Source: Oidiodendron maius Zn (taxonomy: Eukaryota; Ascomycota; Leotiomycetes; Myxotrichaceae). From it: a DNA stretch of 64,000 bases. The position numbers and the translations under genes were made by a program. Location of the stretch: contig KN832881.1 of assembly GCA_000827325.1 (NCBI GenBank), forward strand, positions 890,616-954,615. The letters are read 5' to 3'. The notes beneath the pieces are model-generated. The model searched no databases and was not told the DNA's origin. It saw nothing but the letters and a program-made list of their open reading frames with translations. Position 1 is the first letter of the stretch. Each line of letters begins with the position of its first letter. Positions 17,003 through 21,330 of the stretch are shown piece after piece.

Positions 17003-20000
17003 ATGGCTGAAGAGGTCTACGACGGTGCGATCGGTATCGATCTTGGTATGTGCTTCTTCCGTCTTGCATTCCCACCAGGGTGCGCAAGACGGCCTCCGCT
17101 GCTCTTTCTTGGTATCTCGCTCGTCGTCGCTTGCTGACATTTGCTCGATGCAGGCACCACCTACTCCTGCGGTACGTCGTATTAACCCAGAGCCTCGATG
17201 CGCTCCTCTAGCAGCATGCCCAAGAGCAGCGGATACTGATTGATAGCCAGTTGCCAACTATGAGGGCGCCAACGTCGAAATCATCGCCAACGAGCAGGGT
17301 AGTTTCACCACCCCGTCGTTCGTCTCCTTCACCGACAAGGAGCGCTTGATTGGCGAATCAGCCAAGAACCAGGCTGCTATGAACCCAAGAAATACCATCT
17401 TCGATATCAAGTCCGTAGTCCCCTTTGGCACTGATTGTTTCTGGCACGGGGAAATTTATATGCTGACCAGCTCCCAAATGAAGGCGTCTTATCGGTCGAC
17501 GATTTGATGATCCAACTGTTCGGAAAGACTGTGATAGTTGGCCATTCAAGGTCATTGATCACGATGGAAGCCCTATGGTTGAAGTTGGTTAGTTAGCACT
17601 TTCCTTGAGTTTCATACCTTCCTTAGGAGGGCAGAGAGATTGATCGCGGCCCTCGTTCCTCGGAGTTTCCATTCTTGTTCATCTGCAACTTCCGTTAGGA
17701 TGGGAGAGATATTGATCGAGGCCCTCGTTCCTCGGAGTTTCCATTCTTGTTCATCTGCAACTTCCGTTAGGGTGGGAGAGATATTGATCGAGGCCCTCGT
17801 TCCTCGTGAGGATAAGAGGAGTTTCCATTCTTGTTCATCTGCAACTTCCGTTAGGATGGCAGAGATATTGATCGAGGCCCTCGTTCCTCCTCCAGTGAGG
17901 ATAAGAGGAGTTTCTATTCTTGTTCATCTGCAACTCGACAGTCCTTCTATTGTACAACTGTTTTCCAGCCTTGTCTATCTGCACCTCGAAAGTACTTTTC
18001 TACAATCGTATAAGAATCAGGATGGCGTTCACAGCCAGTACGATGCTCCAGCTCTTGGTGGTGGTTACCTGGACTCTTCTTTCTATAACCCCTACCAAGT
18101 CGAAGCGCGCTTTGTTCTCGCATCTTCTTCCAGATCAAGCTGTCTTGTCTGAGATGGTCTCCGCTACTGGTTTTGCGTTCTGTCCTGGCCTCTTCAATGC
18201 TATCCAAGCCGCTGGCCCACCACCTCTGAGCTTCTTTCTAGGTCTTCCTTCGGACAGTGTCCAAAGATGGGGCATCTATGTTTTGGTCCTCGACAAGCCA
18301 GCTGCTGTTCCTCTTATCTATATTGGGTCTGGTACTGCGAGCAAGGGTGGCGTTCAGACCCGCTTTCTGGAATACGATCGGGATGTACATGTATCTCGCT
18401 ATGTCAGAAACGCTCTGAACAACGGCTACACCATCGTCCACAAAGGACTTCTCCTCTGGTCTCCGATTCCGCCTGTAGCAGATATTCCGAGGTCCCGCGT
18501 GCTATTCGTAGCAATAGAGGCTGCGATGAGCTTCTTATTCTGGGCTATGAAATCTCAGAATAAAGACTACGGAATGAGCGAGTTCTGTCCCTGGTCTCGA
18601 GATTCCTTTTCGTACCGTGGATTATGCAGTCACAATCCCCTCTCGGATGCTATCGCTGGCGATTTCAATCTTACCAGCGAGGCCCTCGAAGCTATTGCTG
18701 CTGAGACCAAAGAGAAGCTTCGCGTTTACAATGCCGAGCATCATCAAAATTTTCGTGCCCGGTCCCCTGATCGCTTCTATGCCCAACGGCGCAAGAACGA
18801 TGCAAACTTCAAGAAGAACGCACCTGACAAGGTCAGGAAGAACCACAATGCTTCTTGCGATAGGGCCAAGGCGAATAAGAAGTACTACTGCGCCATCTGC
18901 GATGTCTCTTGCCGCAAGAACAATGCCCTCACAGCACACAAGGCTACCCCCCGTCACTTGAAGAAGGTGGCCGAGGCCGAGTCGAGCTCACGCTCGACTT
19001 AGCCAGTCTTCAGAGAGATTTTTTGGACTTTTTGGGCACATCAATAGCTCATCTACTGACAATATCATTAGAGTATCTCGGAGAGACCAAGACTTTCTCA
19101 CCCCAGGAGATCTCATCCATGGTTTTAACCAAGGTAAATTGTTCAACATTCCGGCATATGGTCGTGTGCTAACGTACCGTCATTATAGATGAAGGAAGTT
19201 GCCGAAGTCAAGCTGGGCAAGAAGGTCTCCAAGGCCGTCATCACTGTTCCTGCCTACTTCAACGACAACCAGCGTCAAGCTACCAAGGATGCTGGTGCCA
19301 TTGCTGGCCTCAACGTCCTTCGTATCATCAACGAGCCTACCGCGGCGGCTATTGCCTACGGTCTTGGCGCAGGCAAGTCCAACAAGGAGCGCAATGTCCT
19401 GATCTACGATCTTGGTGGTGGAACTTTCGATGTGTCCCTCCTCAACATCCAGGGTGGTGTTTTCACTGTCAAGGCTACTGCTGGTGACACCCACTTGGGA
19501 GGTCAGGACTTCGATACCAACTTGCTCGAGCACTTCAAGAAAGAGTTCCAGCGAAAGACTAAGAAAGGTGCGTGATCTTATACGGTATAATACCACGAAA
19601 CGTTATTTGAAGAAAGTGGCGGACTCGAACTCACGCTCAGCTCAACTTTTCCTTTGCCTCGTTTTCTTGGACTTCTTGGACTTGCATCATCAACCTGCAG
19701 TATGTACTAACAACTTCATCACTAGACATGTCGAATGACCCCCGTGCTCTTCGTCGTCTCCGGACTGCTTGCGAGCGTGCTAAGAGAACCCTTTCCAACG
19801 GCGCCCAAACCACCGTCGAGATTGACTCTCTCTTTGATGGAGAGGACTTCAATGCTCAGATCACTCGTGCCAGATTCGAGGACCTTAACTCCAAGGCTTT
19901 CAACGGTACTCTGGAGCCAGTTGCTCAGGTTCTGAAGGATGCCAATCTTGACAAGAGCAAGGTTGATGAGATTGTGCTTGTCGGTGGCTCTACCCGTATC

Positions 20001-21330
20001 CCACGGATACAGAAGCTCCTGAGCGACTTTTTTGATGGCAAGAAGCTTGAGAAGAGCATCAACCCAGATGAGGCCGTAGCCTACGGTGCAGCGGTTCAAG
20101 CCGGTATCCTTTCCGGCAAGGCCACCTCTGCTGATACCGCTGACCTCCTCCTGCTTGATGTCGTTCCCCTCTCCCTCGGTGTCGCCATGGAGGGTAACAT
20201 CTTTGCTCCGGTTGTTCCTCGCGGGCAGTCTGTCCCAACACTGAAAAAGGTCAGAAGCCCTTTCCCTTCTCCCTGTCCAAAAGTACTTTTACGGTGGTGA
20301 TGTACTGGGGTGAGGGCGTCCCTCCCCTATAGGGTAACTTCCTTTGGGGATGGCAACGCCTTCTACTCTTGAGGATGCTTCTTCCTTCAGTAAGGAGGGG
20401 TAATCTTACTTACTTCTGCTGCTTTATGTCTGCTGTTTCTTCTTGCGATCGTCTCTGCTACTCCAAGCGTCACTTGAAGAAAGTGACTGATGCCAAGTCG
20501 AGCTCAAGCTCGGCTTAAGTACTGTTCATTGCGATTTCTTGGGAGCATCATTTCAGAGAACTGTTCTTCGAGTATCATTTCAGAGCACTTTTCTTCGAAC
20601 ATCATTTCAGAGCGATTTTTCTTCAAGCATCATCAAACACAACATTCACTAACATCGTTTTTAGAGAACTTTCACCACTGTTTCCGGTAAAATATTCTCA
20701 AAACTCCTAATACCTCGTCTAAACGAAGTAATACTAACTCCGGGTTAGACAATCAACAGACTGTGCAATTCCCGGTTTACCAGGGAGAGCGTGTCAACTG
20801 CGAGGATAATACCTCTCTCGGAGAGTTTACCCTTGCCCCGATCCCCCCAATGAAGGCTGGTGATGCTGTCCTTGAAGTCGTCTTCGAGGTCGATGTCAAC
20901 GGTATCCTCAAGGTCACGGCTACCGAGAAGACCTCCGGCCGCAGTGCCAACATCACCATCTCCAACTCCGTCGGCAAGCTGTCCTCTACCGAAATCGAAA
21001 ACATGATCAGTGGTAAGTCTAATCTCAGCTCTTGAGAAGAACTCGGTCTAATATAATCCAGATGCCGAGAAGTTCAAGAATAGCGATGAGGCTTTCAGCA
21101 AGAAGTTCGAGGCTAGACAACAACTCGAGTCCTACATCTCGAGAGTTGAGGAGATCGTCTCCGACCCCACCATGTCTCTGAAGCTCAAGCGTGGAACCAA
21201 GGACAAGATCGAGTCCGCCCTCAGTGACGCTATGGCCCAGCTTGAGATCGAAGATTCCACCTCTGATGACCTGAAGAAGAAGGAGCTTGCATTGAAGAGA
21301 GTTGTTACCAAGGCCATGTCGACCCGCTAG
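17003..21330 (+). CDS. SSB1: SSB-type cytosolic HSP70, ribosome-associated chaperone, with ten exons
   Basis: ATP-dependent chaperone that binds nascent chains at the ribosome. The protein, about 614 aa, has the HSP70 signatures [24 protein letters not shown] and VGGSTRIP. Its end VVTKAMSTR without an EEVD tail, and [16 protein letters not shown], point to the Ssb rather than the Ssa class. Exons: 17003-17045, 17154-17171 (18 nt), 17251-17410, 17484-17587, 19072-19133, 19189-19567, 19726-20249, 20665-20686 (22 nt), about 20749-21012, 21062-21330; all join in phase. The third intron appears to start with GTCCGT, a weak donor. Three introns are enlarged (17588-19071, 19568-19725, 20250-20664), and each holds intact or relic sequence of one GIY-YIG/zinc-finger ORF. 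The remaining six introns are 49-108 bp. Confidence 0.94.
17628..17935 (+). repeat. 72-bp tandem repeat, four units
   Basis: Units begin near 17628, 17700, 17772 and 17856 and share GATCGAGGCCCTCGTTCCTC and CATTCTTGTTCATCTGCAAC. Units 1 and 2 are nearly identical. Units 3 and 4 carry an extra stretch containing GTGAGGATAAGAGGAG. The array sits in the intron just before the nuclease-like ORF. Because 72 is a multiple of three, one frame stays open and reads a repeating 24-residue peptide; I treat that as incidental. Confidence 0.9.
18022..19002 (+). CDS. GIY-YIG nuclease-like protein with C-terminal C2H2 zinc finger, nested in an SSB1 intron
   Basis: Uninterrupted ORF. I take the ATG at 18022 (326 aa); the frame is open upstream to 17920, so the start is uncertain. 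The GIY-YIG motif is complete: GIY at residues 84-86 and YIG at 100-102, with Arg114 (QTRFLEYD) and Glu166 ([11 protein letters not shown]) placed where the family has catalytic Arg and metal-binding Glu. The C-terminus has C290-x2-C293-x12-H306-x5-H312, a U1/matrin-like C2H2 finger, after a very basic segment (residues 245-288). It then ends [22 protein letters not shown] domains occur in homing endonucleases, where a separate DNA-binding module gives site choice; the finger could play that part. Activity and expression are inferred. The ORF lies on the host's sense strand and must be translated from an unspliced or separate transcript. Confidence 0.8.
   Translation: MAFTASTMLQLLVVVTWTLLSITPTKSKRALFSHLLPDQAVLSEMVSATGFAFCPGLFNAIQAAGPPPLSFFLGLPSDSVQRWGIYVLVLDKPAAVPLIYIGSGTASKGGVQTRFLEYDRDVHVSRYVRNALNNGYTIVHKGLLLWSPIPPVADIPRSRVLFVAIEAAMSFLFWAMKSQNKDYGMSEFCPWSRDSFSYRGLCSHNPLSDAIAGDFNLTSEALEAIAAETKEKLRVYNAEHHQNFRARSPDRFYAQRRKNDANFKKNAPDKVRKNHNASCDRAKANKKYYCAICDVSCRKNNALTAHKATPRHLKKVAEAESSSRST
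19601..19645 (+). pseudogene. Relic of the GIY-YIG ORF 3' end in SSB1 intron 19568-19725
   Basis: This stretch translates as [15 protein letters not shown], matching the C-terminus [16 protein letters not shown] of the intact ORF with one codon missing and no stop. The sequence after it (TTTTCTTGGACTTCTTGGAC) also resembles the intact copy just past its stop codon (TTTTTTGGACTTTTTGGG). The host intron is 158 bp and keeps a TACTAAC branch point and CACTAG acceptor. Confidence 0.75.
20468..20518 (+). pseudogene. Relic of the GIY-YIG ORF 3' end in SSB1 intron 20250-20664
   Basis: Reads [16 protein letters not shown] then a stop codon, collinear with [20 protein letters not shown] of the intact ORF. 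By hand count about 43 of 51 bases agree. The upstream part of the ORF, including the GIY-YIG region and the cysteines of the finger, is not recognisable here. The host intron is 415 bp and ends with CACTAAC and TTTTTAG. Confidence 0.8.
20544..20634 (+). repeat. 27-bp tandem repeat, about three and a half units
   Basis: Units share CATCATTTCAGAG followed by an ACTTTTCTTCG-like segment (starts near 20544, 20571, 20598, 20626). The array lies in the same intron as the second relic, directly after it. It is a different repeat from the 72-bp array of the large intron. Confidence 0.8.

Follow-up and report, generated by a model that had tools for sequence, protein, structure and literature searches.

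Introns 4, 6 and 7 of a gene for an SSB-type cytosolic Hsp70 in Oidiodendron maius Zn are, judging from their sequences, of common descent. The gene lies in the window, i.e., the whole stretch of 64,000 nucleotides (nt) that was analyzed (contig C12:890616-954615 of a searched genome of 45.9 Mb in 58 contigs). Intron 4 carries an intact open reading frame (ORF). The interpretation that we find somewhat probable is that introns 6 and 7 are its decayed relatives, and that all three belong to a type of spliceosomal homing intron that encodes a GIY-YIG-like protein with C2H2 fingers and resides in the cell's own genes. The gene and its three long introns are positioned as follows.

17003..21330, plus strand: SSB-type cytosolic Hsp70 host gene with 10 exons; the exon join gives 614 amino acids plus stop.
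17588..19071, plus strand: intron 4, 1484 nt, phase 1, the ORF-bearing full-length element (donor GTTAGT, acceptor ATTAG, host frame open across it).
19568..19725, plus strand: intron 6, 158 nt, phase 1, a tail-only relic (open frame, randomization, model R2).
20250..20664, plus strand: intron 7, 415 nt, phase 0, a relic (open frame, randomization, model R2).

The host protein has its best solved matches in the PDB with the SSB1 chains 7olc and 5tky (E 0). Six of the nine introns of the gene measure 49–108 nt, the long three being introns 4, 6 and 7. An earlier note on this DNA placed introns 6 and 7 at the coordinates listed here, which are correct and leave the host frame open. It also read in both introns the last codons of the intron-4 ORF, in the sense orientation, and alignment bears out the likeness (28 of 42 bases for intron 6; 43 of 51 for intron 7, as counted by hand before) as well as the orientation of all three copies. 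Local alignments of the last 260 nt per intron (all 158 nt of intron 6), each set against 200 Markov randomizations, give scores of 71 versus a null maximum of 33 for introns 4 and 7 (z 18.7), 35 versus 27 for introns 4 and 6 (z 8.0) and 37 versus 31 for introns 6 and 7 (z 7.1), respectively. The homology continues beyond the codons and takes in a hairpin, a T-rich tract and a CATCA element; common T-rich sequence downstream had been described in the earlier note.

These shared modules were captured in a covariance model (R2) that spans the hairpin, the T-tract and the CATCA element and was trained on intron 4 plus a single element from each of two other loci, with introns 6 and 7 held out. 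When both strands of the window were searched with R2, intron 7 took second place (31 bits, E 1.3e-5), intron 6 took third place (18.6 bits, E 0.013), and the next match was the hairpin of intron 4 read on the reverse strand (E 0.15); all E-values of the covariance models are rough because the calibration was short. The rank of the two held-out introns argues that the observed kinship is real. Counted from the RHLKK codons, the acceptor lies 120, 125 and 197 nt downstream in the three introns, so that the similar spacing claimed earlier applies to two of them and fails for intron 7, where the greater distance is mainly due to a 27-nt repeat in 3.6 copies. Taken alone, the match of intron 6 is weak (blastn to intron 7, E 0.004), and this intron is absent from the matches of two genome-wide DNA searches. 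The parts of the two relics are given below.

19601..19642, plus strand: relic of the ORF 3' end in intron 6 (28/42 bases identical to intron 4), reading without a stop at the position of the ORF's stop.
19623..19694, plus strand: degenerate hairpin, T-tract and GCATCA tail of intron 6 (held-out R2, E 0.013), with no stem of at least 8 bp remaining.
20280..20288, plus strand: AAAGTACTT motif near the 5' end of intron 7 (nt 31), from a post hoc motif scan.
20468..20518, plus strand: relic of the ORF 3' end in intron 7 (43/51 bases identical to intron 4).
20496..20515, plus strand: hairpin with one G.U pair in intron 7 (R2, E 1.3e-5 for 20496-20555).
20535..20633, plus strand: tail portion CATCATTTCAGAG of intron 7, repeated 3.6 times in units of 27 nt (TRF).

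Intron 4 itself comprises repeats, an ORF and a structured tail, arranged from 5' to 3'.

17618..17935, plus strand: tandem repeats with units of 72–84 nt, 5' of the ORF (TRF and repeat search).
17989..17997, plus strand: AAAGTACTT motif 5' of the first ATG of the ORF (motif scan, post hoc).
18022..19002, plus strand: intact ORF with an N-terminal region, a GIY-YIG-like core and a C2H2 finger (326 amino acids from the ATG at 18022; frame open from 17920), encoding protein P0001.
18271..18327, plus strand: GIY...YIG motif (GIY at residues 118–120 and YIG at 134–136 of P0001).
18517..18519, plus strand: invariant Glu, E200 of P0001, unchanged in 4/4 aligned copies and a candidate catalytic residue.
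18883..18957, plus strand: C2H2 zinc finger, zf-met / KIN17 / jaz-like (zf-met E 0.00071; 20.3 bits, below the Pfam cut-off of 21.2).
18980..18999, plus strand: hairpin of 8–9 bp directly 5' of the stop codon (local p 0.004; models R1 and R2).
19019..19043, plus strand: T-tract TTTTTTGGACTTTTTGGG and CATCA element, 5' of the branch-point region.

The proteins of the aligned copies share one layout, in which an N-terminal region precedes a core with WGIY...IYIGSG and an invariant Glu, followed by one or two C-terminal C2H2 fingers. YIGS occurs in 4/4 copies and a strict GIY in 2/4 (AVY in a displaced copy named C2, AFY in the tricalbin copy), while the Glu is invariant (4/4) and, by analogy, may be catalytic. 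The spacing of the motifs may fit that of GIY-YIG enzymes, and the assignment, made at the level of motifs, suggests a putative nuclease. The fingers match the zf-met, jaz and KIN17 models weakly, all below the cut-off except zf-met in the ORF of a clathrin intron. Third codon positions differ most often in 6/6 pairs of copies; between the SSB and clathrin ORFs, for instance, 111 codons hold 55, 40 and 84 differences at positions 1, 2 and 3, respectively. This excess argues that the proteins were functional while they diverged; past selection at the protein level is thus read from the codons, and the intron ORFs are presumably expressed. A PHROGs search led nowhere as to identity (best E 0.036, a family of unknown function).

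In the genome, the family comprises 13 introns in seven conserved genes and the displaced copy C2, 14 elements in total, and all such counts from the genome searches are lower bounds. The host genes encode SSB, clathrin heavy chain (CHC), DED1, pyruvate carboxylase (PYC), tricalbin (TCB), glycyl-tRNA synthetase (GRS) and HSH155, as named by PDB matches (SSB, DED1, HSH155, PYC and GRS) or by the Pfam models Clathrin and C2_TCB1 (clathrin and tricalbin). Removal of the introns leaves the host frame open in 13 out of 13 cases, and their ends are GT-AG. The 13 elements are introns by these open frames, and they are presumably spliced. Searching the nine loci that cover the 14 elements with Rfam cmscan (E up to 5) detected no group I or group II intron, only four sub-threshold matches to unrelated families.

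A tblastn search with the intron-4 ORF reaches six places including itself (best other relative E 1.2e-43), and one with the clathrin ORF reaches the same six loci in ten pieces. The C2 fragment as a query added no further place in the genome, whereas the finger part of the GRS element added one. Intron d of the clathrin gene (CHC_d) has an intact ORF of 401 amino acids; the ORFs of DED1 intron B (DED1_B) and of the tricalbin intron are broken, and the tblastn pieces of DED1_B omit the motif-bearing stretch. The GRS intron retains the finger part only, and PYC intron A (PYC_A) also holds the finger part. DED1_A, CHC introns a and c and PYC_B were added by sequence reading and local blastn. A pattern of hairpin plus T-tract, run over the whole genome, gives six matches at four distinct places (SSB intron 4, C2, PYC_A and HSH155; backwards control 0). 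The intron of HSH155 (SF3B1) was newly found in this way, and its decayed finger ends in the same hairpin. Held-out R2 also recovers PYC_A (E 1.7e-4), HSH155 (E 6.5e-4) and CHC_a (E 0.024). A tighter hairpin pattern finds SSB intron 4 alone across the genome (control 0), and the stem GTCGAGC-GCTCGAC occurs at three genome places, all in family elements, with a backwards control that also gives three. An exact-motif pattern of the tail yields six genome-wide matches (backwards control 1), of which CHC_d and SSB intron 6 belong to the family and the other four, where no relic was noticed, are taken for chance.

Several candidates and observations border on this inventory. CHC intron b was excluded as a member, as none of the other elements matched it up to E 0.01 (the HSH155 region did so at E 0.034); this intron (126 nt, L007:1756-1881) includes TTTTCCTTCTCTGGAC and could be one more relic, though a remote one. 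For CHC intron c, an acceptor at 2659 was rejected because it breaks the frame, which 2643 restores; the blastn comparison used the longer version. The genes for clathrin heavy chain (in region L007, C4:1959683-1968582) and PYC (in region L050, C4:1966000-1973000) lie a few kb apart on contig C4, each with several family introns. The tail of PYC_A (L050:3335-3542) holds a tandem duplication of about 108 bp that repeats the T-tract region. HSH155/SF3B1 is the U2 small nuclear ribonucleoprotein subunit at the branch site, and its relic (L060:4589-5155, minus strand) therefore sits in a gene of the splicing machinery. Motif AAAGTACTT, chosen post hoc, occurs in four of the 21 introns scanned, all from the family (SSB introns 4 and 7, GRS and HSH155), and is absent from the 59.7 kb of DNA that served as the control for motif and match counts. 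Likewise post hoc, the 11-mer CTCTGGATACC stands in the 5' part of CHC introns a and c and of the HSH155 intron (L007:827, L007:2440 and L060:5069, minus strand), with no occurrence in the control.

For the hairpin, six of the nine elements scanned show one stem of at least 8 bp (3–6 nt loop), each time the sole such stem in the element, intron 4 included. Five of these stems lie at or adjoining the stop codon; the one in tricalbin lies close to where the broken ORF ends. Local p values are 0.004 for SSB intron 4, 0.0065 for SSB intron 7, 0.001 for CHC_d, 0.012 for both DED1_B and C2 and 0.155 for GRS; none was computed for tricalbin. Besides the SSB/C2 type, three other stem sequences occur (clathrin, DED1 and tricalbin), and these differences argue for conservation of the structure. 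In a second covariance model, R1, built on a small sample of five sequences, 92.5% of the cells pair, and three pairs are changed on both sides, all in one sequence, a result that 7 out of 500 shuffles reached. Alignments with TCB, or with PYC_A and CHC_d, were misaligned at the hairpin, and no model was built on those alignments. T-tracts in the sense direction occur in 10 of the 14 elements. Overall, 18 sense and two antisense tracts are present in 9959 family bases, compared with two sense and six antisense tracts in the control, a count that is descriptive only because the pattern was drawn from these introns.

The elements can be ordered into stages of decay, which supplies the gradient from full-length to tail-only copies that the earlier note had proposed to look for. 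SSB intron 4 and CHC_d are intact and full-length; C2, DED1_B and tricalbin are long and broken; GRS, PYC_A, CHC_a and HSH155 retain the finger part only; SSB introns 7 and 6 keep the last codons and the tail; and in DED1_A, CHC_c and PYC_B no ORF is recognized. That note had pictured decay from the 5' end. Copies do decay, but the best-resolved relics, DED1_A and PYC_B, lost their interior and kept both ends. The homology of DED1_A to DED1_B begins with the donor's first base (66% over 115 columns, E 0.002, z 7.7) and returns over 84 nt of the tail (86% over 85 columns, E 2e-22), and PYC_B retains a 5' part with 90.6% identity over 181 nt to the displaced C2 copy. The 5' part of SSB intron 7 likewise shares AAAGTACTT with the region upstream of the intron-4 ORF. 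Compared at both ends, the relics thus look like products of internal deletions rather than of 5' loss. That both were retained can be explained by the splice signals required at either end. The 3' end was thought to be kept as a supplier of branch point and acceptor, an account that leaves aside the hairpin and T-tract, which are retained as well.

A homing cycle could account for this series. The spliceosome would excise the intron, and the host would therefore tolerate the element. The encoded protein would cut copies of the host gene that lack the intron, and repair would copy the intron in. Once the site is fixed, no target would be left and the ORF would decay by internal deletion, leaving a short intron because both splice ends are required. 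Homing is proposed here from the sequences, and so is the route by which related elements reached more than one site within a gene. One element bears on that route. In the displaced C2 copy (L008:3422-4909, minus strand), 51 bp of PYC exon precede the donor, and in the PYC gene this exon ends at the donor of PYC_B. The flank argues that in this case DNA was copied together with exon sequence, as expected from repair after a cut, though it is not proof of one. The C2 copy lies antisense to a neighboring open frame (L008:5219-5620, plus strand), which by eye resembles part of a sugar transporter, though Pfam gave no match.

Genome-wide DNA searches with DED1_A, the tail of SSB intron 4 and SSB intron 7 give two matches each, the query itself and its partner in the same gene. 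This favors a mechanism that acts within the gene, i.e., second-site cleavage, RNA-level copying or gene conversion. It does not bear out the earlier suggestion of three independent residents that arrived by repeated insertion, since within-gene copying or gene conversion is equally possible. In these genome-wide DNA searches, the 51-bp segment through which the family was to be traced had no match in an intron of another gene. An unlikely alternative is duplication at the RNA level, in which the excised intron reverse-splices elsewhere into its own transcript and, after reverse transcription, enters the gene by recombination, with the ORF as a passenger and the relics as deleted copies. The same-gene partners fit this scheme, as do the likeness of DED1_A to DED1_B from the first base of the donor and the self-comparison of the host regions (E 1e-3), in which no duplicated exon appears. 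It sits poorly with the exon flank of C2, which points to copying of DNA, with an ORF that evolved under protein-level selection and with full-length elements in different genes. Ectopic gene conversion between pre-existing introns of the SSB gene, which would have transferred the intron-4 tail to introns 6 and 7, draws on the same closest relatives and on the patchy similarity; we rate it as rather improbable, since it requires initial homology, the same modules stand in introns of seven genes, and DED1_A matches at both intron ends.

Two further explanations carry less weight. Introns of common origin in many fungal genes are known (PMC4457414), so that an introner-like element or a family of DNA transposons that makes introns, with the ORF as its mobilizing protein, has a precedent. 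We deem it very unlikely, as terminal inverted repeats are not detected in 13 of the 14 elements (p ≥ 0.17; tricalbin p 0.023) and the genome-wide DNA searches with three probes revealed no dispersed near-identical copies. Chance similarity between T-rich intron tails plus a short codon match would suit the weak match of intron 6 on its own (E 0.004), yet it is contradicted by held-out R2 and by the randomizations, and the control gave one match (E 0.01) on the other strand; we regard it as negligible.

Several observations also count against the homing interpretation that we prefer. The protein has no sequence match to GIY-YIG in Pfam, NCBIfam or PDB, hmmscan of P0001, P0002 and three fragments did not return PF01541, and a search of the genome with PF01541 (E up to 10) did not report the family copies. 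Alignment of the core to four T4 GIY-YIG enzymes by hhalign covers 15 columns around YIG at E 0.0084 with a probability of 4.8% (reversed controls E 0.33 and 0.27). CHC_a, CHC_c, DED1_A and PYC_B lack the sense T-tract, no stem of at least 8 bp was found in GRS, DED1_A and SSB intron 6 among the nine elements scanned, and R2 at E up to 1 does not find DED1_B and TCB and reaches GRS only at E 0.4. Outside the ORF, the copies that are alike in DNA cluster within a gene, which simple homing does not predict. Finally, as judged by eye in five genes, conservation at the insertion sites does not clearly exceed that found elsewhere in the host proteins (DED1_B high; DED1_A, HSH155 and PYC sites ordinary or low). 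A more specific extension is offered tentatively, as a possibility that we would not bet on: a cellular lineage of homing introns whose protein would bind its own intron at the stop-codon hairpin through the C2H2 fingers (a type that includes binders of double-stranded RNA; the jaz match is weak), colonize several sites per gene and leave short, ordinary-looking introns behind.

The closest known systems are the spliceosomal homing introns of mirusviruses ('shintrons'), which carry endonuclease genes with GIY-YIG among their types; according to that report, an association between endonucleases and spliceosomal introns had not been observed before (PMC12768974). The elements described here resemble shintrons as spliceosomal GT-AG introns with a putatively endonuclease-like ORF, residence in conserved genes and no group I/II signature. 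They differ from them by their place in fungal housekeeping genes, a divergent GIY-YIG-like core with C2H2 fingers, the stop-codon hairpin and a series of decay stages, all within one genome, that ends in tail-only introns. Two viral-contig scans and one phage scan gave no sequence relative that would indicate a viral origin; the coverage of mirusvirus genomes by the viral-contig collection was not established. Among the open-access PMC papers searched, titles and abstract openings showed no cellular spliceosomal homing intron; for the term 'shintron' they include the mirusvirus paper and otherwise a single unrelated article, and the mention of GIY-YIG in a fungal-genome paper concerns mitochondrial introns (PMC4469406).

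Fungal introner-like elements share with this family the common descent of introns in different genes and a fast degeneration to ordinary-looking introns, (PMC4457414). The copies found here, in contrast, are diverged and small in number, occur in clusters within genes and are linked to a form that bears an ORF. In a survey of introners, many of them derived from DNA transposons, terminal inverted repeats are reported for 72 of 177 families and target site duplications for 49 of 130, and the words 'endonuclease' and 'homing' do not occur in its main text (PMC9860276). Introners are mobile elements that turn into introns, a trait that this family would share, but the signal of terminal inverted repeats is missing in 13 of the 14 elements here. 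With group I introns and inteins that harbor homing endonucleases, the family shares the proposed life cycle and the residence in conserved genes; it departs from them in its presumed removal by the spliceosome, the absence of a self-splicing match in Rfam and the lack of a clear preference for conserved sites (PMC2814812). On our best reading, what is new here is the presence of homing-type spliceosomal introns, a kind known from mirusviruses, in the housekeeping genes of a cell, together with their relics.

The origin of spliceosomal introns is a long-standing question. Because intact, broken and tail-only stages occur together in one genome, it becomes possible to test whether parasites turn into ordinary introns. 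If the homing interpretation is true, mobile parasites could have left ordinary introns behind as their remains; in conserved fungal genes, some of the ordinary introns would derive from homing parasites, and introns would also be gained along a selfish route that is directed at genes. Elsewhere in the window, the minus strand has a Glu-rich open frame (31558-32640) with a (TCCTCC)n array of about 20 copies inside it (31955-32076).

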